DNA of 64,000 nucleotides from Betaproteobacteria bacterium (GTDB lineage Bacteria > Acidobacteriota > Terriglobia > Acidiferrales > UBA7541): positions 1 to 64,000 of the forward strand of contig CAJCHZ010000052.1 in the NCBI GenBank assembly GCA_903970165.1, in the 5' to 3' direction. Under the pieces are notes generated by a model that saw only the letters and a list, made by a program, of their open reading frames with translations, ran no database searches and had not been told where the DNA came from. This document shows, piece by piece, positions 41,839-57,632 of this stretch; the stretch's first letter is position 1, and each line of letters begins with the position of its first letter. The position numbers were made by a program, and so were the translations under genes.

Positions 41839-44106
41839 CTACGGGTGCGCAGCGTTCGCGGCTGCAATGCGATCGAGCATCGGCTGCATTTCCGGGTTGG
41901 CCATGAACAGCTTCCAGAGCAGCCCGGTGCGGTAGTTCTCGATCATGACAGTGATGGGCGCCTGATTCAGTCCCATATAGATGGGTGAATACCAATCGTG
42001 GTCGGGATTGAAGGCATCGCGCGGCCCGTAAACGCCCCAAACGCGGTCGCCAAGGTCGCGATAATAGTGTTTTAGCGCCGCCATGGAGGCTTCGGGAGTG
42101 TAAGGAAAGGAGGCGAGCGCCCCTGTGGGGGTGATGTTGCCAACGTCATCTCTAAGGTCGGGCGCCTGGGGGGCGTAGCCCCTGGGTCCGTCGCTTGCCG
42201 TCAAACCCCAGGCATCCGGGCCATATCCCTTATGGTGACCGGGGTTTTCCGCGGCGTAGGCAAGATTAATGCGCGCGATGTTGCGGTTGTTCTCGAAATA
42301 ATTCGTGTAGCGATCGGTCAGCGCGTGCGGGTCGAATCCCATGAAGGAGTAATGGGTAAAGAAGAGCGGGCCACCGCTGCCGACACCGACATCCAGCTTG
42401 ATGCCGTAATAGGTGTGGCCATTCGCGTAGTGATCGCCATCGGTGGTTCCTCCCCAGCCGCTGCGGTATTTTATGGCGGCTTCCGACTGGCCGGCCCAAC
42501 CGGAATAATAAAGGTCCGCGGGAACGGCGTGCGTTGGCGACGCGATGGCGAGCAGGTAGACGATCATCACTTCATTCCAGCCTGTCAGGCGATGATTGAT
42601 GTGCGCGGCCCAGTTTGCGGACCAGTGCCAAAAGAGAGCATCCATGTCTGGCTCACGACGATACCAATCCCATTCCACGGCTTCCCAAAGATGGGTGATG
42701 CGCGTGTAAAGTTTTTGCTCCGCATCGGTGGAGCCTCGGAAATATTGCCGCGCGGCAAGCAGTCCTTCGATGAGAAATGCCGTTTCGACCAGGTCGCCGC
42801 CGTCGTCGTACATACCGAAAAGGGGAATGGTCTGGGCGGTGGAGCCGTTCATGAAGTGCGACCACACGCCGTGATAGCGCGGGGCTTTTTCGAGAAAGGC
42901 TACAATTTTCGCGAGACGCTGCAATCCCTGTTCGCGCGTGATGAAGTGGCGGTCAACGCCGGTGACGAGGGCCATGATGCCGAAGCCACTTGCGCCCGTG
43001 GCGACGATGCGGTCATCTCCGGGAATGTTTTCCAGAGACATTCCGGCGTCGGGATGCCCGCCTTCCCAGTAGTAGCGGAAGCAGGCTTCCTGCACCATGG
43101 TGAGCAACTCGTCGTCGGTGAGTTCGCGCGTGGACGCGCTTGCGGCCACGGACAGCGGGGATTCGCGGTAGGAATGGCTCGACGCAGCCACTTTGTAGAA
43201 TGCTTTTTGGCCGGGCTTGCCGAGGTAGTCCGCGTAGCGCGCGATTCCCGGCTCCTGAACTCCGATTGGCTTGAAATTCTTGCCGTCGAAGGAACGGTAG
43301 ACGATGTAGCGTTCGAGATTCTTGCTCGAAACGCGGTCCCACGAAATATCAATGTGGCGCTCAAATCCCTTGGCGATTACGTTTTGCGGTGCGGCAGGCG
43401 CGGCCGTTTTTGCCGTCTGATTAGTGTCGGCGGCGAAATCAATCTTGATTTCGTCGAGGATGAGAACGTGCGGCGCCGCGTCGGAAGAACCCTGGCTCAA
43501 AGTGACGCTCTTCAGACGGTGCGCATCGAGCGGGTGAATGGAAGCGGTGACAAACTGGCTCAGCGGAATTTTCACTTGTGTCCATTTTTTGGCGGGAACG
43601 CCGGCGGCGAATTTTCCGAGCGGCAGTGGAGCGGAAAAATCCTCGAGGTCATCGGAAAGCCGAAGGAGAGGCAGATGGGCGGCGGAAATCGCTTGCGGCG
43701 AATAGAGCCACAAAACGAGGGTGTCGCCAAGAAACGCTGGAAGGCGATTCCTGAAATCCATGACGCGGATCGTCGCCTCCCAGCCGCCATTCGGGCCGGA
43801 GAGCCATTCGAGGCGCAGCGCGTTGGGAGGCGTGAAAAAGATGCCGGCTTCCACGGGCAGGCGGCCGTTTTCCAGTTTGAGCGAGCTTGGGGGCGAGACA
43901 TGCCCCGAACTATAGAAATAAGAATCCGTATTGATGCTGTTGTCAAAAAAGATGTGCCGGTAGTAATTCGTGTCGGCGTGAAGCGGGATTGCGAGGAGAA
44001 GGGCGAGGCTCGCAACAGCAAGAGGGGCCGAGGAAGCGAAGAACAGTTTAGGCCACAATTCCAATCGAGCACCGGATTTTGTTCTGCGAGGACTTTCCGT
44101 TTTCAT
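41839..44106 (-). CDS. GH144-like endo-beta-1,2-glucanase with N-terminal beta domains
   Basis: 755 residues. A signal peptide ([19 protein letters not shown]) is followed by a carbohydrate-binding-like beta domain (residues ~45-230), an FnIII-like unit ([19 protein letters not shown]), and a C-terminal ~430-residue PF10091 (glycoamylase-like) (alpha/alpha)6 domain. The segment [19 protein letters not shown] at about residue 430 holds the acidic cluster (D-x3-D-x2-E) seen in GH144 enzymes, and the FWHWSANW and [12 protein letters not shown] motifs are conserved. GH144 members cut beta-1,2-glucan to sophoro-oligosaccharides. It is divergent to the TonB receptor gene. Confidence 0.85.
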
Positions 44107-44365: not shown

Positions 44366-47300
44366 ATGAATCTGCTTAAGTTATCCCTGCGTGCAGTGGG
44401 GATGTTGGCTTGCGTGAGCGTGCTCGTTTGCTCGGCGCATGGGCAGTACCGGGCTTCGATCCAGGGAGTCGTGACCGATCCGCAAGGAAGCGCAGTGGTG
44501 GGAGCAACGGTTACCCTGACGAATCATGAGACGGGCCAGGTCCAGACGGCGACCACGAACGAAACCGGAATTTATAACTTCAACAGTCTTTCCCCGAGCC
44601 CGTATTCAATCTCGGTCGAAAAAGCGGGCTTCAAGAAAAAGGTTCTCGACAACGTCGGAGTCATCGCGGAGCAGGCAAACGCGGTTAACATTCAACTCGA
44701 GATCGGGCAAATTTCAGAAACGGTAACCGTCAATGGCAATTCAACACCGTTAATTGACACGGAGACTTCAAACCTCCAAGGAACCGTAACGGCTGAGCAA
44801 ATCCAGAAGCTGCCCTCGTTTGGCCGAGATCCCTTCCAGCTTCTCCAGCTTGCGCCCGGTGCATTCGGTGATGGCGCACAAAATGCCGGGGGCGGAACGA
44901 CCGGCCTGCCGAACCAATCGCAGGGCGGCTCTGGCGCGACGGACGGTATCTTCAAGATTGAGAACGGCGGCGCGATTAGCGCGGGGGGCGATCGGCCGGG
45001 CGACAACAATTATCAGATCGACGGAGTGGGGGTTACAAGCGTGACCTGGGGTGGCGCGTCCGTCATCACGCCGAACGAGGACTCGATTAAGGAAGTCAAA
45101 ATCCTCACCGACAACTACGACGCCGAAAACGGGCGTTACCGAGGCGCGCAGGTTCAGATCATCTCCCAAAACGGCACGAACGATTACCACGGGAGCTTTT
45201 TCTTCAAAGCTCATCGGCCTGGGTTGGACGCGTATACGAAATACAATGGCTATAACAACGGCAACGTGCGCGATGGGAACCGCTTTAACGACCTGGGCGG
45301 TTCAGCAGGCGGACCAATTCTGCGCAACAAGCTGTTCGTCTTCTTCGCTTACGAGAGACTGGACGACAACGCAGCCAGCAATACGACCAGCGGCTGGTAT
45401 GACACCGCCGCGTTCCGTGCGCTGGCGCCTTCAGGATCGAACGCCGCAAAGTTTCTAAGCTATCCTGGGGTGGCACCCGATGGGGGCACACAGACGGATG
45501 AGAATTGCGCCTTTGTCGGCCTGACACAAGGAGTGAACTGCAACTTCATACCTGGCCAGGGATTAAATCTGGGCACGCCTTTGACGGCTCCGCTCGGCAC
45601 GCGCGATGCGGGTTACGTTAACAATCTTAATCCGGGCACGGGCGGTGACGGATCTGGAGGCCCGGAAAACCTCGGGAACACGGCGGACATTGCCTACTAT
45701 ACGGGCGTTCTGAACCCCAGCAGCAGCAGCCACGTGCAATACAACGGGCGTGTGGACTTCAATGCGACGAGCAAGGACCTGGTTGCCTTCAGCATTTACT
45801 ATGTGCCGAACGCGAGTTCGAGCATTAACGGCAATGGCGACCGAGAGATGAACGCTTTCAACACGACCTACATCAACCGAGCAGCTACGGTTATCTGGGA
45901 CCATACATTCGGCTCGACGCTGGTCAACGAGGCGCGCGTCAACGCCGCCGGGTGGCTGGAAAAGGATCTTGACAGCAACCCGAACGCGCCTTGGGGATTG
46001 CCGCAAATCAGCTTTAACGGCACCGGCAGCATCAACGTCGAAGGGTACGGAATCGGATCGTTCAACGGATTCGACCAGTGGACCTACGCCGGGAAGGATG
46101 TACTCACCAAGGTGCATGGCGCACACACTATGAAGATGGGGGGCGAGTTTACCCGCTTGCTTTCCGTTGACGCTCCTTTCTGGGCGGACCGCCCCAGCTA
46201 CAGTTTCAACAACATCTGGGACTTTCTGAACGATGCTCCCGTACAGGAGAACGCGCAGCTAAATCCCCAGACCGGCGTGCCCTCTGCTTTGCGTAAAGAC
46301 CTCCGGGACAACATCATAGGTCTTTTCTTCCAAGACAACTATAAAGTGCGATCCAATCTGACTGTAACCGCGGGCCTGCGCTGGGAGTATTTCGGGCCGA
46401 TTTCGGAGAAGAATGGACACCTGGCGAGCGTGGATTTCGGCTCGGGGGCGGACGTTTTCTCGGACATAAGTGTCCGCACTGGCGGCAATCTTTTCAACGC
46501 CCAGAAAGGAAATTTCGGCCCGCAGCTGGGGTTTGCGTGGAGCCCAAAGAAGCTTCTGGCGCACGACTTCGGAGGCCGGTTGGTATTTCGCGGCGGCTTC
46601 GGCATGGCCTATGACGGTCTGGCCCAGTCAAACTCACTGGACGGGCGGTTCAATCCGCCGTTTGTGGACAACACGCCGACTCTTTCCGGGAGCCAGATTC
46701 TCTATATCGATAGCTTCCCGACGAATGTGCATGATCCTAACGGGTATGCGTCAAATCCGGCCGGCATTGTCACCTTCGGAGCCAACAATCTTCCAACGAC
46801 AGGCCGAGTAGACCTGACGGCATACCCTGCCAACTGGCCGACAACCTACACATACCACTACACATTTGGCGGCGAATATGATCTCGGCCATCAGTGGGTG
46901 GCTTCGGTTGGATATCAGGGAAGCACAACGCGCCACCTTACTGAGCATTACAACGACTACAACGTGGGGTCCGCGCTGGACAGGCCGCTCAACCCGGCTG
47001 TCTCTGGCGTCATCCTCTATGCGGATGATGGCGATGCGCGCTTCAACGCCTTACTTGTGGAATTGAAGCACGAATTCAACAAGTCCTTCCAGATAGATAC
47101 GCAGTATCGCTTTAGCCACAGCGTGGACTCTGGATCGAGCGCCTACGCGGGTGGCTTCTATCAGTGGGACCTGGCGACGGGCTTTGCGACCTCAGACTAC
47201 GATGTGCGAAATGCCTTTAAAGTATATGGTGTGTATGCACCTACAATCTTCAAAGGCAGCAACAACTGGGTGGAAAAAGTGGCAGGAGGGTGGAGCATCT

Positions 47301-47881
47301 CAGGGATTTTGAATGCTCACAGCGGCTTCCCCTGGACGCCCGAGTACAACAACAACGAGATCACCAACGGTTATGATCCGGTCTTTAACTTCGGGCAATT
47401 CGCAGGCGGTTCATCCAATGACGCGGGATCCGGCAACCTTCTTCCGGCGAAGTATAACGGAGGATATAGTTCTAACTTCCGGAGTTCGGCAACCGTGAAC
47501 GCAGCCTCCTTGTTCACGCCGCCGACAGTAGCTCCGGGAACGCTGTTCACTTGCCTGTTTCCGAATCCGCCGGTTGCGCAATGTCCAGCGGGTCAGCAAG
47601 GCTTTGGACCACTGCCAACCTTTCCGGGAATCTCACGCAATTCTTTCACGGGTCCCGGCTACTTCGATATCGACGCGTCGCTTAGCAAGTCCTTTGGATT
47701 GCCGCGGATGAGGATTCTGGGAGAAGGCGCCAAGATCGAGTTTCGGGCCAACTTCTATAACCTGTTCAACAAACTCAACCTATACAACCCTCAGGTTGAC
47801 ATCCTGAACGCGCATTTTGGCGAGGCGCAAAACGCGCTGGGTGCCCGCACCATCGAGATGCAGGCCAGATTCAGCTTCTAA
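44366..47881 (+). CDS. Oar-type TonB-dependent receptor
   Basis: 1171 residues. The signal peptide covers about 1-27. A carboxypeptidase-regulatory-like domain follows at ~30-115 (GVVTDPQGSAVVGATVTLTN). A plug domain (~125-260) precedes a long beta-barrel; the chain ends ARFSF with a C-terminal aromatic residue. It should bind and import a large ligand across the outer membrane by TonB energy. There is no SusD partner. The strong promoter with operator-like site and the flanking glycosidases suggest a glycan ligand. Confidence 0.92.
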   Translation: MNLLKLSLRAVGMLACVSVLVCSAHGQYRASIQGVVTDPQGSAVVGATVTLTNHETGQVQTATTNETGIYNFNSLSPSPYSISVEKAGFKKKVLDNVGVIAEQANAVNIQLEIGQISETVTVNGNSTPLIDTETSNLQGTVTAEQIQKLPSFGRDPFQLLQLAPGAFGDGAQNAGGGTTGLPNQSQGGSGATDGIFKIENGGAISAGGDRPGDNNYQIDGVGVTSVTWGGASVITPNEDSIKEVKILTDNYDAENGRYRGAQVQIISQNGTNDYHGSFFFKAHRPGLDAYTKYNGYNNGNVRDGNRFNDLGGSAGGPILRNKLFVFFAYERLDDNAASNTTSGWYDTAAFRALAPSGSNAAKFLSYPGVAPDGGTQTDENCAFVGLTQGVNCNFIPGQGLNLGTPLTAPLGTRDAGYVNNLNPGTGGDGSGGPENLGNTADIAYYTGVLNPSSSSHVQYNGRVDFNATSKDLVAFSIYYVPNASSSINGNGDREMNAFNTTYINRAATVIWDHTFGSTLVNEARVNAAGWLEKDLDSNPNAPWGLPQISFNGTGSINVEGYGIGSFNGFDQWTYAGKDVLTKVHGAHTMKMGGEFTRLLSVDAPFWADRPSYSFNNIWDFLNDAPVQENAQLNPQTGVPSALRKDLRDNIIGLFFQDNYKVRSNLTVTAGLRWEYFGPISEKNGHLASVDFGSGADVFSDISVRTGGNLFNAQKGNFGPQLGFAWSPKKLLAHDFGGRLVFRGGFGMAYDGLAQSNSLDGRFNPPFVDNTPTLSGSQILYIDSFPTNVHDPNGYASNPAGIVTFGANNLPTTGRVDLTAYPANWPTTYTYHYTFGGEYDLGHQWVASVGYQGSTTRHLTEHYNDYNVGSALDRPLNPAVSGVILYADDGDARFNALLVELKHEFNKSFQIDTQYRFSHSVDSGSSAYAGGFYQWDLATGFATSDYDVRNAFKVYGVYAPTIFKGSNNWVEKVAGGWSISGILNAHSGFPWTPEYNNNEITNGYDPVFNFGQFAGGSSNDAGSGNLLPAKYNGGYSSNFRSSATVNAASLFTPPTVAPGTLFTCLFPNPPVAQCPAGQQGFGPLPTFPGISRNSFTGPGYFDIDASLSKSFGLPRMRILGEGAKIEFRANFYNLFNKLNLYNPQVDILNAHFGEAQNALGARTIEMQARFSF

Positions 47882-48077: not shown

Positions 48078-49268
48078 TTGCTGGTGGCAGTGGCGCTCCG
48101 GCTTGCCATTGCATCGGCTGCGGTCGGAGCCCAGGTCCGCCCGTCCGCGGCGGGTGATTTCAAGGTTCTGGCGGAGCAGGCGGAGCAAGCAAGCAAGCAG
48201 AACCGTCTGGATGACGCTGCTTCGCTCTATCGGAAGGCGCTCGCGCTTCGGCCCGCATGGACAGAGGGATGGTGGTCGTTGGGCACGATAGAGTATGACC
48301 GGGACAATTATGCGAAAGCTGCCGGAGATTTTGAAAAGGTCATTGCTTTGGATGCAAAGGATGGGACCGCGCATTCCATGCTGGGATTGTGTCAGTTCGA
48401 ATTAGGCAGGGACGAAAGCGCGCTCAAGAACCTTTTGGAAGCGGAACGACTCGGTGTCTTGAAAAACGAGCAGTTGCGCCGGGTGTCGGTGTACCACCTG
48501 GGAGTGCTCCAATTGAGAACCGGAGAATTCACCTCGGCGAAGGAATCGTTCTGGCAATTGGCTAAGGACGGGGTCCGGACCACCGAACTGGTCAATGCGC
48601 TGGGCCAGACGGCACTTCTCATACGGCCACAGGACTCACCAAAAGAAGGCACAGCAGGCGCTCAGGTCGTGTCACAGGCTGGAGAAGCGGAGAGGCTGCT
48701 GGCTACAAAGGATTTCGATCACGCCAAACAAATTTACAGGAATCTCTCGGAACAGTTCCCAGACTACCCCAATCTGCATTTTGCTTTCGGCAGAGTTCTC
48801 CTGGAGACGCACGAGAGCGACGAAGCGGTCGAGGAATTCCTGCTCGAATTGAAGCGTGACCCTCAAAATGTGAATTCGCTTCTTGAAATTGCGGCCGTAC
48901 GATATCGGACGAATTCGGCGGACGGCGTACAGTACGCCCAAGAGGCGGTGAAACTCGACCCGCGAAGACCATTTGGTCATTATCTGCTCGGCTTGCTGTA
49001 TCTGGACACAGAGAACTATGTGGGCGCGATTTCAGAATTGCAGATTGCCCGGCTGGCGCATCCCAACTTGGCGGAAATCTATTTCGCGCTGGGAAATGCT
49101 TACGCGCGCGCCGGACGAAAGCAGGAGGCTTCACGGGCGCGCGAGACTTTCAAGCGGCTTAGCGCGCTGAATCCGCAACAGTCCTCGAGCGACGTATACG
49201 GGGAACCGCCTTCCGGCTTGGTGCGCGGGAAAATCGGAACCGATCCGGAAAGCAAGGCTCCGAACTAA
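48078..49268 (+). CDS. Exported tetratricopeptide repeat protein
   Basis: 396 residues. A signal peptide ([18 protein letters not shown]) is followed by about eight TPR units, e.g. [26 protein letters not shown] and [26 protein letters not shown] (quoted motifs short: [17 protein letters not shown]). TPRs hold protein complexes together. TTG at 48078 is the best start; in-frame sequence upstream also looks leader-like, but no normal start codon was found. It lies between the receptor and the ASPIC protein gene. Confidence 0.8.
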
Positions 49269-49354
49269 AGCCTAGAGAAGCGTCGAAACAAAGCCAATTC
49301 GTCTGCCTGAAACACGGCAATCCCGTGACGAAGACTGATTACGAGAATAGTTCC

Positions 49355-51082
49355 ATGACTAGATCCAAGAGAAGAGAATTTCTGAAGGCGATTGGAGTTA
49401 GTTTAGCCGGAAGTTTGGAATTTCACGCATTCCCATGGAGCCCCCTGCCGCAAGCGGGACAAGTTGGAAATGTGCGCGCATCGGGTAAAGCTCTGTTTGA
49501 GAGAGTACCGGAGTCCGCGAGCGGAATTACGTGGAAACATTCCAACGGGCGTTCGCCGGAATATTACTTGCCGGAGACGACTGGAGCTGGTTGCGCTTTT
49601 CTGGATTACGACAACGACGGGTGGATGGACATTTATCTGGTGAACAGCGGGAAGTGCGATTTTTTTGATCCGCAGCCAGCGCTTCGAAACGCGCTTTACC
49701 ACAACAATCGGGACGGCACGTTTACCGACGTAACGGAGAAGGCCGGCGTTGGAGGCGGCGGCTATGGGATGGGCGTGGCTGTCGGCGACTACGACGGAGA
49801 TGGCTGGCCGGACTTGTATGTGACGCAGTACGGGCGGAGCATTCTTTATCACAACAACGGCAACGGAACCTTCAGTGACGTAACCGAACGCGCGCGCGTT
49901 GCTGCGCCGGGGTGGGCCTCCAGCGCGGTGTGGTTTGACTACGATAATGACGGGCGGCTGGATTTGTTTGTATGCCGGTTCGTGGAGTTCGATAAATCCA
50001 AGAATAAATTTTGCGGGAATGAAAAGACCGGGGAGCGGTATTACTGCATTCCACGCGTGTATCCACCTGCGCGGAGCTGGCTGTTTCATAACAACGGGGA
50101 CGGGACATTTACTGACGTGAGTATGGAATCGGGGATTGGCAAGGCGCTTGGAAAAGCGTGGGGAGTGGTGGCCACGGATATTAATAATGACGGATGGATG
50201 GATTTGCTGGTGGCGAACGACACGGTTGCCAATTTTCTGTTTGCGAATCGCGGACATGGAAAATTTCAAGAGATTGGGCTGGAGGCGGGAGTTGCCTACA
50301 GCCAGGATGGGCGGGCGCGTTCAGGGATGGGCGTGGATTCGGCGGACTACGACCAGGACGGATCGCAGGATTTGTTCGTGACCAACGTGGATCAGGAAAT
50401 GTATTCGCTTTACCGCAATCATCGCGATGAGACGTTTGACGATGTTGCCGGAACGATGGGGATTGGCGGGATGACGCGCTTGATGAGCGGGTGGGGAGTA
50501 AAGTTTTTTGATTACGACAACGATGGGGACGTGGATCTGTTCATTGCCAACGGGCATCCCGACGACCGCGTCGAGGAGCACACGAACAATGTGGCTTACC
50601 GCGAGCCGTTGCTGCTGTTTCACAATAGCGGAAAGGCGTTTCAGAACGTGAGCGCGTCTGCCGGGCCTGTTTTCGCGGAGAATTTTGCGGCTCGCGGCTT
50701 GGCAATCGGAGATTTCAACAATGATGGGGCGGTTGACGCGCTGGTGAGCGTGAACAATGGGGCGCCGGTGCTGCTCAAAAATAATGCGGCGCAGGGAAAT
50801 CATTGGCTTGGCGTGCGGCTGATGGGGAAGCGGGCAAATCCCGATGCGATTGGCGCGCGCATTGCCTGGCAGGCGGACGACCTGAAGCGCAGCAGGCTGA
50901 AAACGGGCGGAGGGAGTTATCTCTCGGCGCATGATCCTCGAGAGGTGCTCGGGATTGGAGATCGAATCAAGATAGATCGATTGGAGATTCGATGGCCGCA
51001 GCCTAGCGGGCGCACCGAGGTTTTCACGGAACTGCCGGTGGATCGTTACATAACGATTGTGGAGGGCGCCGGGATTAAGTGA
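49355..51082 (+). CDS. CRTAC1/ASPIC-UnbV protein with FG-GAP repeats, Tat signal
   Basis: About 575 residues. A Tat signal ([15 protein letters not shown]) is followed by repeated FG-GAP/VCBS calcium motifs: [84 protein letters not shown]. The C-terminal ~100 residues are an ASPIC/UnbV domain ([15 protein letters not shown]). The repeats form a beta-propeller binding Ca2+; a surface carbohydrate- or adhesion-related role is likely. A GTG at 49325 would add 10 residues; the ATG at 49355 puts the Tat motif at the N-terminus. Confidence 0.85.
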
Positions 51083-51131: not shown

Positions 51132-52511
51132 CTACGTCGCTTGAAATCCTGCCAATTGCATGGCTGCTATCGCTTGGGAATTGGTCATGAAGGTATTCCA
51201 GACAAAACCAGTACGGTAGTTTTCGGCCATGAGCATCGAGATGCCAAGATCTATTCCGAGAACATCCACGTCATACCAGCCCGTGAGCGGATTGAAGGCG
51301 TCCACGTAGCCGTAGCGCTGCCAGGCTTTGGGGTAATAGCCGCGAATCCATCGAAGGACCTGGATCGTGTCGGTGTAGTCGAAGGGAAGCGAGCCTGCCG
51401 TAGCGCAGGGGACGACACTGCCGTCAACCGGGCCAATAATCTCCCCTTGCGCGGACGGACCTCCCCAAGCTACATAGCCGTTCACGGAATCGGATGAAGT
51501 GATCCCCCAGAGGTTTGCGCTATAGTCGGAGAATTGCCCGGTGAGGGAAATACAGAAGAGACGATGCGCTTCTGTTGCGGTGATGGAATTCTGAAAATAG
51601 TTTGCGTAGGCGTCTTTCTTGTTGCGGAAATCAAACCAGGCATGGGAATACTGATGGACGAAGAGCGGGTCCGAGCCGGAGATGTAGGAAAGGCCTTGAT
51701 AATTAATCACTGGGCGCGACCAGGCCGACCAGCTTGAGGGGGGAATTGCAAAGGCTGGGTTGGGAGCGGCCATTGCGAGAAGATAGAGCATCATCAGCTC
51801 GCAGTAGTGATCCCAGGTTCCAGCGAGGAAACCACTTTCCGGAGTCCAGCCCATCGAAAGAAGCGTGCCGCCGTTCAGCATCCAGTTGAAATTTACGTTG
51901 CTGTAGATTTGAGAGGCGAGATTTTGAATTGTGGGGTCGGAGAAATATTGTCCGCAGGTGAGAACGCCGCAGAGAAGAATGGCGGTATCGATGGAAGAGA
52001 CTTCAGAACCCGGGGCCCTGGCGCCGGTGGTCATGTCCACGAAGTGATAGAAGAAACCGTTCATGCCCACCGGTTGCATGGTGTTGGCCAGAAAACTCAG
52101 GGTGTTCTGGACCTTTGTGACAATCGCGGTGTGCGGCTGATAGGCGCGCTGGTCACCGATGCAGAGCGCGGTCAGGCCGAATCCTGTCGCCGCGATGCTT
52201 GACAGCGTGCTGGTGTCATTGCCCGCGGCGAGGGCGCGATCTTTCACTTGGCCGGAATTTGGATCGGATTGTTCCCAGTAATAGAGAAACGCGGCTTGTT
52301 CTAGATCATCGAGGAGCTGATCGTCCGTGCCGGTATAACCATTGCCGGGCGGGGGCAGCGTGACGGTGGAGGAACCGCCGCCGCAGGCGTTCTGAAATAG
52401 CACGGAAGCGATGGCCGGGGCGAAGATGGCGGACTTGCCGAGATCGGTGAGAAAGCGACGCCGCGCGATTCTGTTTGGCATGGAAAGGGCCGTTTTCGTG
52501 ACGGAAGCCAT
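51132..52511 (-). CDS. PF10091 (glycoamylase-like) glycosidase, Tat lipoprotein
   Basis: 459 residues. The N-terminus has a twin-arginine motif (ARRRFLTDLGKSA) and a lipobox-like LFQNAC at about residue 43, so a Tat-exported lipoprotein is likely. The catalytic domain shares the PF10091 signatures FLYYWEQSDPNSGQVKDRAL, AATGFGLTALCIGD, GVLTCGQYF and ENYRTGFVWNTFM with its neighbour. It has SSIDT where the 755-residue enzyme has GGDLVET, so the acid residues differ. It begins 3 bases after the stop of the paralogue upstream, in the GH3 operon. Confidence 0.82.
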   Translation of the reverse strand: MASVTKTALSMPNRIARRRFLTDLGKSAIFAPAIASVLFQNACGGGSSTVTLPPPGNGYTGTDDQLLDDLEQAAFLYYWEQSDPNSGQVKDRALAAGNDTSTLSSIAATGFGLTALCIGDQRAYQPHTAIVTKVQNTLSFLANTMQPVGMNGFFYHFVDMTTGARAPGSEVSSIDTAILLCGVLTCGQYFSDPTIQNLASQIYSNVNFNWMLNGGTLLSMGWTPESGFLAGTWDHYCELMMLYLLAMAAPNPAFAIPPSSWSAWSRPVINYQGLSYISGSDPLFVHQYSHAWFDFRNKKDAYANYFQNSITATEAHRLFCISLTGQFSDYSANLWGITSSDSVNGYVAWGGPSAQGEIIGPVDGSVVPCATAGSLPFDYTDTIQVLRWIRGYYPKAWQRYGYVDAFNPLTGWYDVDVLGIDLGISMLMAENYRTGFVWNTFMTNSQAIAAMQLAGFQAT

Positions 52512-52514
52512 GCA

Positions 52515-53837
52515 CTAGGCCGCGTGGAAGCCGGCCTTTTGCATGGCGGTTTGGGCTTCGGGATTCTTCATGAAGACTTCCCAGACCATGCCGGTGCGGT
52601 GATTTTCTGCCATCACCATGGTTATGCCGAGGTCGATGCCGAGGGCGTCCTGGTCGTACCAGCCAGTTAGAGGATTGAATGCATCGAGAAAGCCGTATCT
52701 GGCCCAGACCTTTTCCCGGTAACGGCCACGGATATTGCGAAGGACGCGAATGCAATCCTCGTAAAGAAATGGCAGTGAGCCGCCCGTCGCGCAAGGAACG
52801 ATGCTGCCGTCAATGGGGCCTTGCGGCGGCGGGCCGCCCCAGGCGGTGTAGCCTTGCGCATAGTCGGAGGCGCTGATGCCCCACAGGTTTTCGGAGTAAT
52901 CCGGGAACCGCTCGTGTAGCGAGAGGCAAAAGAGTTTGTGGGCTTTGGTGGCTTTGATGGAATTTTCATAATAGTTGGTATACGCGTCGCGTTTTTTGCG
53001 GAAATCAAACCAGGCTTGCGAATACTGATGAGTGAAAATGGGATCATTGCCGGAAATATATTCGAGGCCCTGATACTTGATGACCGGGCGAGTCCAGGCT
53101 TTCCAGGTTTCGGGCGAAAGCGGATGCGTGGGAGAGCCGATTCCCAGCAGATAAATCATCATCAGCTCGCAGTAGTGTTCCCAGCGCGCATCGAGGAACC
53201 CTGATTCGGGATGCCAGCCCATGGAGAGCGTAGTACCGCCGTTGAGCATCCAAGGCCAGTCCACGCGTTCGTAAATTTTCGTGGCGAGGTCCTTGATTTC
53301 CTGGTCGGCAAAATATTGGCGAGCCGTGAGCACGCCGCAGAGAAGAAGCGACGTATCGATGGAGGAGAGCTCGGTGGTTTCCCAGCGCGCGCCGGTTTCC
53401 ATGTGGATGAAGTGGTAGAAGAAACCGTGTTCGTGGTGCAGTTCGTTCGCGAGGAAGCGAAGCGTGTTTCGCACACGCTCGAGAATTTCCGCGGACTTGC
53501 CGAAGCCGCGGCGGTCGCCGATGCAAAGAGCCGTCAGCCCAAAGCCCGTGGCGGCAATACTGGACATCGCGCGGGTGTCGTTGCCATTCGCGAGAGCGCG
53601 GTCTTTCACTTGACCGGTTTCAGGACTTGCTTCAAACCAGAAAAAATCAAAGCTGGTGCGCTGAATTTCATCCAGCAGCTTTTCGTCTGTTCCTTGATAA
53701 GGGGCGCCTGTCGGCTCAACGAATGATTTCTGTGGATTGGCCGCGCGAGCCAGAAGTGGTGTTAAAGAAGAAGAGAGAAGACCGAGGCCACCCAGGCGGA
53801 TGATTTCTCTTCGGTCCAACGAGTGTTTCCTGACCAT
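52515..53837 (-). CDS. PF10091 (glycoamylase-like) glycosidase, Tat-exported
   Basis: 440 residues, close paralogue of the next gene. The Tat motif is DRREIIRLGGLGLL. The domain shows FFWFEASPETGQVKDRAL, AATGFGLTALCIGDRRG, TELSSIDTSLLLCGVL, GWHPESGFLDARWEHYCELMMIYLLG (short motif: EHYCELMM) and ENHRTGMVWEVFM. As in its paralogue, SSIDT replaces the GH144 acid cluster. A ribosome site AGGTGG precedes the ATG. It is the second gene of a GH3-led operon and probably acts in the periplasm. Confidence 0.83.
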   Translation of the reverse strand: MVRKHSLDRREIIRLGGLGLLSSSLTPLLARAANPQKSFVEPTGAPYQGTDEKLLDEIQRTSFDFFWFEASPETGQVKDRALANGNDTRAMSSIAATGFGLTALCIGDRRGFGKSAEILERVRNTLRFLANELHHEHGFFYHFIHMETGARWETTELSSIDTSLLLCGVLTARQYFADQEIKDLATKIYERVDWPWMLNGGTTLSMGWHPESGFLDARWEHYCELMMIYLLGIGSPTHPLSPETWKAWTRPVIKYQGLEYISGNDPIFTHQYSQAWFDFRKKRDAYTNYYENSIKATKAHKLFCLSLHERFPDYSENLWGISASDYAQGYTAWGGPPPQGPIDGSIVPCATGGSLPFLYEDCIRVLRNIRGRYREKVWARYGFLDAFNPLTGWYDQDALGIDLGITMVMAENHRTGMVWEVFMKNPEAQTAMQKAGFHAA

Positions 53838-53851
53838 TTTGCCACCTGCCG

Positions 53852-56242
53852 CTATTTTTTAATCTCGAGGATTGTTTCAGAACCGTGCGCGGAATCCGGA
53901 CTGATCCATATCGTCAAGCGCGCAGGCTCGACGACATATTTGTTTTGATCGTCCCAGATCGCGAACGCATCGGCTCCCAAATGAAATGTAACGCGCTGCG
54001 TTTCACCGGCGGCCAGCTTCACGTGCTGAAAGCCCTTAAGGGCGCGAACGGGCTGGGCGGTGCTGGTGCCTTCGAGGCGAACATAGAGTTGCGCCGTTTC
54101 CTCGCCGGCGCGCGTGCCTGTGTTGGTGATGTCCGCGCTGACCGTTAATGAGTTGTTCGCCGAGTCCTTCGGGGCCGAAAGGCTGCGATTCAGGGTTGCA
54201 GCACTCAATTGGGTTGCGCTGGCTTGCGTGGCTCCAAAGCGGAAACTCGTGTAAGTGAGTCCGTAGCCAAAGGGAAACTGCGGACTATTCTGCTCATCAA
54301 TATAGCGCGAGACAAACTTCGTAGGAACATCGTGCGGCGGCTGCGTGAGATCTACGCCGGTCGCGGGACGTCCGGTGTTGAGTGCGTTGTAGTAGAGAGG
54401 TTCCTGGCCGACGGATCGTGGCCAGGTCAGCGGCAACCGGCCGATAGGGTTGGATTCGCCAAAGAGCGTGCGGACGAGAGCGGGGCCGGCTTGCAATCCC
54501 GGGAACCAAGCGGCGAGAACACTGGAGACATGTTCAAACGCCCAAGGAAGAGTCAGCGGCCGTCCGCTGAAGAGCACGAGGACGACCGGTTTTCCGGTGG
54601 CCACAATCGCTTCGAGAAGCTCTTGCTGACGACCCGGCAAGCCAAGGCTTGCGCGGGAGGCAGCTTCACCGGTCATTTCGGAGGCATTTTCGCCCAGGGC
54701 GAGAATGGCGACGTCGGAGTTTTTCGCGGCATCAACAACGGCGGCGAGTTGATCATGCGACCCTCCCACAATCTCACTGCCTTTCGCATAGCGCACATGA
54801 TCCGCTCCCAATTTTTGGAGAAGCGCGGCACGCAAGGTGATCACATCTTCCGGACGGCCTTGCGCCCCCCAAGAACCGAGCATCACGGAGGCGTCATCGG
54901 CGAGTGGCCCGATGAGGGCAATGTTTTTTGCATCGGCAGAAAGCGGGAGAATCGCTGATCCGCCATCCGGCGAGGAATTCTTGAGCAGCACAAGAGAGCG
55001 CTCGGCAACCGTTCGCGCCAATTCCACGCTCTGCGGGCGGAGCATCGCGGCGGTTTCCTTACTCTCGTCCACATAGGGATGTTCAAATAAACCAAGGGCG
55101 AATTTCAGCCTCAGTACATCGCGCACAGCATCATCCACAATCGATGCAGGCACCTGGCCTGCGCGGACGAGATTGGCAAGATTGTCGTGATAAAAGCTGC
55201 TGACCATGTCCATTTCGACGCCAGCGAGAATGGCCCTGCGGGCGGCGGTTGCCGAGTCGTTCGCGATGCCGTGAGGAATCAATTCACCTACAGAAGTCCA
55301 ATCGCTGTCGACAACTCCTCGAAAACCCCATTCCTTGCGGAGGATCTGCCGGATGGTGAAAGGATTCGCGCTGGAGGGGATGCCATTCAGGGAATTGAAG
55401 GCCGTCATGATCGTGGCAGCTCCGGCGTCAACTGCGGCGTGAAAAGGTGGCAGGTAAAATTCGCGGAGGGTGTGCTCGGAAATTTCAGTGGAATTATAAT
55501 CGCGTCCGCCTTCGGCTGCGCCATAACCAACGTAGTGCTTGGGGCAGGCAGCGACACTGTCCGGGGCGTTGAGATGATCGCCCTGATAACCAAGGACAAA
55601 GGCGCGAGCCATCGCTGAATCCAGATAAGTGTCTTCGCCAAATCCTTCGGCCATCCTTCCCCAACGAGCGTCACGGGCGATATCAATCATGGGAGAAAAT
55701 GCCCATCGAACACCGGTTGCGGAGGATTCCTGAGCGGCCACGCGGGCGGTCTGCTGGACCAGGCCGGGATCCCATGTGGATGCCAATCCCAGAGGCAGGG
55801 GAAACTCCGTGCGGAAGCCGTGAATTACGTCGAGCCCAAAGACAATAGGTATGTGAAGGCGGGATTTTTCTACCGCGACATGCTGGAAGGCGTTTGTTTC
55901 CCTGGCAGTGGAGATGTTGAAGAGCGCGCCGATTTCGCCCTTCTGGAGCATGTCATTGTACTCGGTGCGGCCCGTGCCGGGGCCAGTGGGTTGCCCGGCG
56001 GAATACTGGACCAACTGGCCAACCTTTTCTTCCAGAGTCATTTTGTGAAGGAGGGCTTCTATCTTTTGTTCGGTGGCGGGGTCGCTGAGAGTGGGACGAG
56101 GACTCGATCTGCGGGCTGCAGCGGCGGGGTCGGTTTCTTGCGCAGAAGCAAACTGGCAGGAGATCAGCAGGCAGATGAGAACGGCAAGGCGAAGGAGCGG
56201 GGTGAGCACGTTTTCAACGACTCCGATGGTGCCAGCGGACAT
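53852..56242 (-). CDS. GH3 beta-glucosidase (BglX-like), exported
   Basis: 796 residues. A signal peptide (LAVLICLLISCQFASAQ) is followed by the GH3 N-terminal barrel with FGLDVIHGFRTEFPLPL and the nucleophile region GVVDSDWTSVGEL. The GH3 C-terminal domain follows (VVLVLFSGRPLTLPW), then an FnIII-like tail (ITNTGTRAGEETAQLYVR). It removes terminal beta-linked glucose from oligosaccharides in the periplasm. It is the first gene of the minus-strand operon and is divergent from lacI, with dyad sites between them. Confidence 0.93.
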   Translation of the reverse strand: MSAGTIGVVENVLTPLLRLAVLICLLISCQFASAQETDPAAAARRSSPRPTLSDPATEQKIEALLHKMTLEEKVGQLVQYSAGQPTGPGTGRTEYNDMLQKGEIGALFNISTARETNAFQHVAVEKSRLHIPIVFGLDVIHGFRTEFPLPLGLASTWDPGLVQQTARVAAQESSATGVRWAFSPMIDIARDARWGRMAEGFGEDTYLDSAMARAFVLGYQGDHLNAPDSVAACPKHYVGYGAAEGGRDYNSTEISEHTLREFYLPPFHAAVDAGAATIMTAFNSLNGIPSSANPFTIRQILRKEWGFRGVVDSDWTSVGELIPHGIANDSATAARRAILAGVEMDMVSSFYHDNLANLVRAGQVPASIVDDAVRDVLRLKFALGLFEHPYVDESKETAAMLRPQSVELARTVAERSLVLLKNSSPDGGSAILPLSADAKNIALIGPLADDASVMLGSWGAQGRPEDVITLRAALLQKLGADHVRYAKGSEIVGGSHDQLAAVVDAAKNSDVAILALGENASEMTGEAASRASLGLPGRQQELLEAIVATGKPVVLVLFSGRPLTLPWAFEHVSSVLAAWFPGLQAGPALVRTLFGESNPIGRLPLTWPRSVGQEPLYYNALNTGRPATGVDLTQPPHDVPTKFVSRYIDEQNSPQFPFGYGLTYTSFRFGATQASATQLSAATLNRSLSAPKDSANNSLTVSADITNTGTRAGEETAQLYVRLEGTSTAQPVRALKGFQHVKLAAGETQRVTFHLGADAFAIWDDQNKYVVEPARLTIWISPDSAHGSETILEIKK

Positions 56243-56555: not shown

Positions 56556-57632
56556 ATGACCCGTTCAAAGCCAAATGACGGCGGCGCTCCTCGGAGACCC
56601 TCCGGTACCGGGGTTAGTCTGAAGCATCTGGCCGAACACCTCGGCCTTTCTCAGGCTGCGGTCTCGTTCGTAATCAACCGGTCTCCCGCGGCAAAATCGA
56701 TTCCGCAGCGAACCCAAGAATTGATCCGCGCCGCGGCGCGGGAGCTGAATTACCGGCCCAATCACCTTGCGCGGTCATTGCGGCAGCAACGGAGTTTTAC
56801 CATCGGCGTGGTTGTGCCGGAAATCAGCGAAGGTTATGCAGCCCTGGTCATGTCGGGGATCGAAGACCACCTTCTCCAGGAGGGCTACTTTTACTTTGTC
56901 GTCAGCCACCGGCACCGAAACGAGCTTATCGAAGAGTATCCTCTTCTGCTGCAGCAACGGGCGGTGGAAGGATTGATTGCGGTGGATACGGCGCTCGCAG
57001 AAGAGCTGGATGTGCCCAGCGTGGCGGTTTCGGGCCATCGGGACATGCCGGGAGTCACGAATATCGTGCTCAATCATGCGCGCGCGGCATGCATGGCGGT
57101 GGAGCATCTTGCAAGCCTGGGGCACCGAAAAATAGCGTTCATCAAGGGGCAGGCCTTCAGCTCCGACACGGAAATTCGCTGGGAAGCGGTACGCGAGGCC
57201 GCCAGCAAATTCGACATCGAGGTAAACGAAAAGCTCGTAGGTCAATTAGAGGGAGAGTCGTCTTCCCCGCTGTTGGGTTATGAGGTCACGCAAAAGCTCC
57301 TGGCCTGTGGAGAGTCGTTCACGGCGCTTTTTTCGTTCAACGACATTTCGGCGATTGGCGCGATCCAGGGATTGCGCGAAGCGGGCCGCCGCGTGCCGGA
57401 GGATGTTTCCGTCGTTGGCTTTGACGATATTCAAAGTGCGGCGTTCCAGAATCCTGCGCTGACAACGGTTCGGCAGCCGCTACGCCAGATGGGGATGATT
57501 GCTGCGGAAACGCTTTTGCAGCGCATCACCGCGCCCGCGAAGGCGCCCTATACGAAGGAAATCGTGGTTGAGCCGGAGTTGATCGTGCGTGGCAGCACCG
57601 CTCCCGTTCCGAAAACATCTGCTTCCCATTAA
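56556..57632 (+). CDS. LacI-family transcriptional regulator
   Basis: 358 residues. The N-terminal helix-turn-helix is VSLKHLAEHLGLSQAAVSFVINRSP with the hinge NYRPNHLARSLRQ. The periplasmic-binding-protein-like sensor domain includes LGHRKIAFIKG and VPEDVSVVGFDDIQSA and ends VVEPELIVRGST. It should repress the adjacent glycosidase operon and be released by a sugar product. The leader of about 20 residues before the helix-turn-helix is longer than usual. Confidence 0.92.
   Translation: MTRSKPNDGGAPRRPSGTGVSLKHLAEHLGLSQAAVSFVINRSPAAKSIPQRTQELIRAAARELNYRPNHLARSLRQQRSFTIGVVVPEISEGYAALVMSGIEDHLLQEGYFYFVVSHRHRNELIEEYPLLLQQRAVEGLIAVDTALAEELDVPSVAVSGHRDMPGVTNIVLNHARAACMAVEHLASLGHRKIAFIKGQAFSSDTEIRWEAVREAASKFDIEVNEKLVGQLEGESSSPLLGYEVTQKLLACGESFTALFSFNDISAIGAIQGLREAGRRVPEDVSVVGFDDIQSAAFQNPALTTVRQPLRQMGMIAAETLLQRITAPAKAPYTKEIVVEPELIVRGSTAPVPKTSASH

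Follow-up and report, generated by a model that had tools for sequence, protein, structure and literature searches.

Two tandem GH144-type proteins that lack the DxGGDLVE acid cluster are probable exported beta-1,2-glucanases

The window analysed here (the whole stretch of DNA, 64,000 nucleotides in length) encodes three proteins that match PF10091, and these were the only matches in the 5.6-Mb host genome, all of them far above the cut-off. The largest (755 aa) carries an acid cluster of the DxGGDLVE type while the two smaller ones, SGLa and SGLb, carry ELSSIDT and EVSSIDT, respectively; all these motifs were present as quoted in an earlier note on this DNA. The question raised by this locus is whether the pair acts on another linkage or by another mechanism, as that note proposed, or by the standard GH144 chemistry. 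The features of the gene cluster are the following:

41839-44106, minus strand: 755-aa GH144 enzyme with the BDI_3064 architecture (exo, sophorose-releasing type) and the DxGGDLVE cluster
44366-47881, plus strand: TonB-dependent-receptor-like outer-membrane protein (CarboxypepD_reg and beta-barrel)
48078-49268, plus strand: TPR protein
49325-51082, plus strand: FG-GAP / ASPIC-UnbV protein, convergent with SGLb
51132-52511, minus strand: SGLb, tandem paralogue of 459 aa, with a Tat-like signal followed by NACGGG; EVSSIDT (E170, S172, D175), E238, F284 and Y346
52515-53837, minus strand: SGLa, GH144-type protein of 440 aa, with a Tat-like signal; ELSSIDT (E156, S158, D161), E224, F268, Y330 and W333
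53852-56242, minus strand: GH3 beta-glucosidase, in the same direction as SGLa and 14 nt upstream of it
56556-57632, plus strand: LacI-type regulator, divergent from the GH3 gene with a gap of 313 bp

SGLa and SGLb were 58% identical to each other and about 26-29% identical to the domain of the 755-aa enzyme. Given gaps of 14 nt (GH3/SGLa) and 3 nt (SGLa/SGLb) on the minus strand, the GH3, SGLa and SGLb genes look like one operon. A single operon for the three PF10091 genes, as previously claimed, was rejected, since 7,025 bp and three plus-strand ORFs (TonB-receptor-like, TPR and ASPIC/UnbV) lie between the 755-aa gene and SGLb; that gene shares the gene cluster of the pair but not their operon. 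Promoter and terminator scans revealed nothing exceeding shuffled sequences. The 755-aa protein matched BDI_3064 over residues 49-752, N-terminal domains included (E 1.6e-221), that is, it matches an exo-enzyme of the BDI_3064 type.

With respect to family, the best solved relative in phmmer searches against the PDB was XcSGL (XCC2207, 8XUL), with E values of 1e-69 for SGLa and 9.7e-57 for SGLb. The seven best matches were GH144-type chains, and the GH194 enzyme 8XUK was found at 3e-13 versus 1e-69. AlphaFold2 models of SGLa and SGLb had pLDDT values of 91.1 and 88.6, respectively; the fold search covered the SGLa model, and side chains were compared by sequence alignment. The SGLa model is a single (alpha/alpha)6-barrel, and its superposition on GH144 crystal structures, a check put forward in the earlier note, gave fits at 1.6-2.0 Å with VIA Z scores of 51.1-54.6: 4GL3 (Z 54.6, 1.7 Å, 385 residues), 5GZK, which is CpSGL (Z 53.0, 2.0 Å, 390 residues), and 8XUL (Z 51.8, 1.6 Å, 384 residues, 39% identical). 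Farther matches were GH189 8WY1 (Z 45.8), GH194 8XUK (40.0) and GH162 (about 31), and Foldseek agreed. Membership of GH194 was rejected, since 8XUK was farther than every GH144 chain in both sequence and fold, and so was that of GH189, whose rows formed a separate branch (support 100, length 2.73), GH144 being nearer. By sequence and predicted fold, SGLa and SGLb belong to GH144, and the newer related families GH192-194, to which attention had been drawn, are not the home of the pair.

The active site was compared in an alignment of 118 domains (111 from loci, the three proteins of the window and four references taken from the PDB), from which 12 short fragments had been dropped, as they were for the first tree. 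In this sample, which is enriched for relatives of SGLa (the query of one locus search), E-x-S-x-x-D was present in 107 of the 118 rows and DxGGDLVE in 11. The claim that one or two acidic residues are replaced by Ser held only in part. In the alignment of 118 rows, as in those that phmmer made with 4gl3 and 5z06, CpSGL D139 lies opposite Ser158 of SGLa and D135 has no acidic partner; in a 7-row alignment D139 faces Glu156 instead. The E142 site is acidic in both paralogues (D161 in SGLa and D175 in SGLb); E142 corresponded to D161 in every alignment, whichever residue faced D139, and its column contained D in 107 rows and E in 11. The acid Glu, Phe and Tyr that define the clan (E239, F286 and Y367 of XcSGL) are E224, F268 and Y330 in SGLa and E238, F284 and Y346 in SGLb. 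The column of the general acid, CpSGL E211, was E in 117/118 rows, the lone Q being the engineered E239Q of 8XUL, while those of F268 and Y330 were invariant in 118/118. Similarly, on the side of the family to which SGLa belongs, an alignment of 40 rows showed no variation at E156, S158, D161, E224, F268 and Y330 of SGLa.

XcSGL, from Xanthomonas campestris, carries ELSSVDT aligned with the ELSSIDT motif, and it has been shown to be an active GH144 enzyme, endolytic and specific for beta-1,2-glucan (PMC12102758). The same source, through which the CpSGL results are taken here, states that D135 and D139 of CpSGL are not conserved in the clan and treats the general base of GH144 as a candidate only, favouring E142; when the Asp corresponding to E142 was mutated in EeSGL1 and PgSGL3, less than 0.1% of the activity remained. 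According to the literature on relatives, the role of general acid falls to the residue equivalent to CpSGL E211. Because the same pattern occurs in XcSGL, a proven GH144 enzyme, the substitution in the acid cluster is explained and, by this comparison, the puzzle is already accounted for. The D135 + D139 cluster, which the alignments did not reveal in SGLa, is not a GH144 requirement, as XcSGL also lacks it. Loss of catalysis was rejected, all catalytic positions being filled. Glu224 and Asp161 occupy the acid and base positions in the alignment, which is, at the level of sequence, the first half of what the earlier note had named as refuting a changed mechanism, the second half being identical activity; together with the shared E-L-S-S-[IV]-D-T of XcSGL and the fit of the SGLa model to GH144, it speaks against that proposal.

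In a tree built without the motif columns, the two motif types separated across one branch (support 100), and on the E-x-S-x-x-D side XcSGL fell in a 27-row branch (99) and SGLa and SGLb in an 80-row branch (97). With a GH189 outgroup, for which two partial rows were dropped before this second tree, the supports were 84 and 96, respectively; the PgSGL3 (GH194) sequence was in neither tree. The proposal of a different PF10091 subfamily is thus right in that the pair lies in another branch than both the 755-aa enzyme and XcSGL, and wrong in that this branch is still GH144. Because the 107 and 11 rows split by clade, the motif difference is, on this alignment, a fixed clade difference rather than chance. 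The GH189 domains of cyclic-glucan-synthase-like proteins, a distant outgroup, carried VS-x-VD in 8 of 10 rows, the other two being gapped at the site, and a review equates TiCGSTg D1127 with CpSGL E142 (PMC11842490). Since the outgroup also carries S-x-x-D, this is probably the older state and the cluster of the 755-aa enzyme the derived one, a polarity based on the shared state and not on a rooted tree, since with GH189 as outgroup the three GH144 branches joined in open forks. In the wider family, as sampled here, a Ser opposite D139 is the rule rather than a loss.

The SGLa/SGLb branch is widespread (Acidobacteriota, Planctomycetota, Verrucomicrobiota, Omnitrophota and Clostridium). Among the PDB matches there was no solved structure from it, the best one being only 40% identical, and in a literature search that was not exhaustive we found no assayed member. 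GH144 domains of this branch also occur within longer proteins of Omnitrophota and Verrucomicrobiota (L094:5987-11161, 1,724 aa, and L092:9986-13087, 1,033 aa).

Regarding export, the Tat signals noted for the small pair were recovered as twin-Arg motifs (DRREII; RRRFL) by a simple pattern, and the signal of the 755-aa protein looked Sec-like, this by eye only. A loose pattern (RRx followed by a hydrophobic residue in the first 75 residues), some of whose hits are perhaps not signals, was found in 63 of the 66 rows that come from loci in the inner branch (68 rows in all), in 1 of the 12 outer rows of the SGLa/SGLb branch and in 5 of the 26 locus rows of the XcSGL branch. Tat export therefore looks like a trait of the lineage, uninformative on the chemistry. 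In SGLb the twin-Arg signal is followed by NACGGG (residues about 36-46), so that it is a possible Tat lipoprotein, unlike SGLa; several relatives also resemble Tat lipoproteins (e.g., LAGCG, LSACG and FSGCGGG).

The gene neighbourhood bears on the substrate. Over 80 loci, with counts that are lower bounds given that contig ends cut many loci and with close relatives that are not independent, a GH3 like that of the window was present in at least 30, LacI in 48, a TonB-type receptor in 39, TPR in 11, ASPIC in 11 and an exo-type GH144 in 6; the GH3 gene was directly adjacent and on the same strand in 19, Clostridium (L108-L111) included. As the 5.6-Mb host genome contains only six GH3 genes, the closeness of GH3 and SGL is unlikely to be due to chance. 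In one locus (L117) the SGL, exo-enzyme and GH3 genes abut on one strand, and in six loci, picked because the genes were listed close together and thus not a random sample, a cyclic-glucan-synthase-like gene adjoins an SGL of the same branch or lies about 2 kb from it (about 2 kb in L115 and L116). The GH3 of the window keeps the three residues that the Lin1840/JMB19063 clade has at subsite +1, namely the W after the nucleophile Asp, the R of NTGRP and the F of TKF (JMB19063 numbering matched by chain position). Lin1840, of the same clade, is reported to cleave both sophorose and laminaribiose (PMC4757417); since laminaribiose is also taken, the GH3 does not prove a beta-1,2 linkage. In the host assembly, which is 94% complete, no match to a cyclic-glucan synthase, GH94 or OpgG was found, so that an outside source of the substrate would be needed. 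As a whole, the neighbourhood (LacI, GH3, exo-enzyme and TonB-type receptor, and the synthase-like gene of the relatives) points to beta-1,2-glucan. As regards GH94, a supersandwich match was absent from 6 of the 7 genomes searched, whereas two were found in G257, which has a 2,945-aa frame.

In attention to these data, SGLa and SGLb are likely to be exported GH144 enzymes that hydrolyse beta-1,2-glucan by the standard GH144 chemistry, most likely in endo mode. Our analysis itself shows the residues, the fold as predicted, the branch and the neighbouring genes, and the catalytic roles, specificity and inversion come from the literature on relatives; activity, endo mode, beta-1,2 specificity, compartment and order of the pathway are what we infer from them. 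After export of the Tat type, hydrolysis would proceed with inversion of the anomer, as inferred for GH144, with E224/E238 protonating the scissile bond via the 3-OH of the subsite +2 glucose, D161/D175 (the counterparts of CpSGL E142) acting as the candidate general base and Y330/Y346 stacking at subsite -3. Most likely the pair would make internal cuts in the chain, the 755-aa BDI_3064-type enzyme would then clip sophorose from the ends and the GH3 enzyme would make glucose, the pathway being under putative LacI control.

Near the substrate cleft, the branch has differences of its own. Position 333 was aromatic in 80 of the 80 rows of the SGLa/SGLb branch (Trp in the inner 68), Arg in 27 of the 27 rows of the XcSGL branch, and His, Gln or Tyr in the DxGGDLVE rows; position 405 was mostly Ile in the former branch versus Pro in the latter. 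Because position 333 lies three residues from Y330, whose equivalent in XcSGL is described as stacking at subsite -3 (PMC12102758), a role of the aromatic residue in glucan binding is plausible, although we only infer it, and the changes at 333 and 405 could alter product size or the endo/exo mode. With regard to duplication, a second small GH144 copy adjoins the first in L060, L063, L068 and L076, in a branch of its own separate from SGLb. A single ancient duplicate comprising SGLb and the second copies of L060, L063 and L068 was rejected (AU p 3.6e-11; constraint set winB, L028, L063_1414, L060_8233 and L068_2, chosen after the first tree and leaving out the partial L076_3), which implies at least two independent origins of a second copy.

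Such repeated origin would be expected if copies divide labour, and a different job for one or both paralogues on beta-1,2-glucan (exo-acting, size-selective or transglycosylating), arising from the changed cleft (aromatic 333 and Ile405), is conceivable but doubtful. It agrees with the clade-fixed differences near Y330, with the presence of an exo enzyme in GH144 and with the product patterns that vary among clan members (PMC12102758); against it, the catalytic and clan-defining residues are unchanged and the cluster has another gene for its exo enzyme. More speculative, and in our opinion improbable, is a third GH144 branch with a new product profile due to aromatic 333 whose members, in Acidobacteriaceae having a cyclic-glucan-synthase-like protein without GH94, would trim the glucan in trans from a neighbouring gene instead of GH94.

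That loss of the acid cluster brought a different linkage (beta-1,3 or beta-1,6) or a different mechanism could be argued from the Ser at the D139 position, the cleft substitutions and the laminaribiose accepted by the GH3 clade. We regard it as very unlikely: XcSGL, with the same motif, is listed as inactive on laminarin, CM-curdlan, pustulan, lichenan and CM-cellulose (PMC12102758, Table 1), D161 and E224 are retained, and relatives adjoin a beta-1,2-glucan-synthase-like gene and an exo-type enzyme. That the two are non-catalytic binding or scaffold proteins, for which the lack of a known assay in their branch is all that speaks, is scarcely credible, given that the catalytic positions are all invariant in the 80-row branch, that purifying selection acts on SGLa (dN 0.092 and dS 1.31 versus L033) and that the pair is kept next to GH3.

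The DxGGDLVE cluster is no test of GH144 function; as an annotation criterion, it would give the wrong label to most PF10091 proteins of this sample (107/118 in a set enriched for SGLa relatives). Their branch, often found in a LacI-GH3-GH144 unit, is a ready target for biochemistry.

Among the known systems, XcSGL resembles the pair in the motif, the acid Glu (changed to Q in the protein that was crystallised), the Phe, the Tyr and the fold (1.6 Å over 384 residues for the SGLa model), with identities of about 40% to SGLa and 37% to SGLb. It differs from SGLa in belonging to a sister branch and in having Arg at the W333 site and Pro at the I405 site, and it has a C-terminal disordered region, unlike SGLa and SGLb. 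CpSGL (5GZH/5GZK), the founding member of GH144, shares with SGLa the fold, the acid E211, the counterparts of F268 and Y330 and the acidic E142 site, but it carries the DxGGDLVE cluster and is only 27% identical. BDI_3064 (5Z06), of exo type, belongs to the same family and probably acts on the same polymer, while its extra N-terminal domains, exo action and distant branch set it apart from the pair. Finally, PgSGL3 (8XUK) of GH194 is an inverting beta-1,2-glucanase with an Asp as candidate base, features also proposed for SGLa and SGLb, and is clearly more remote from SGLa (E 3e-13, 19% identity and Z 40.0 versus 51-55 for the GH144 chains).
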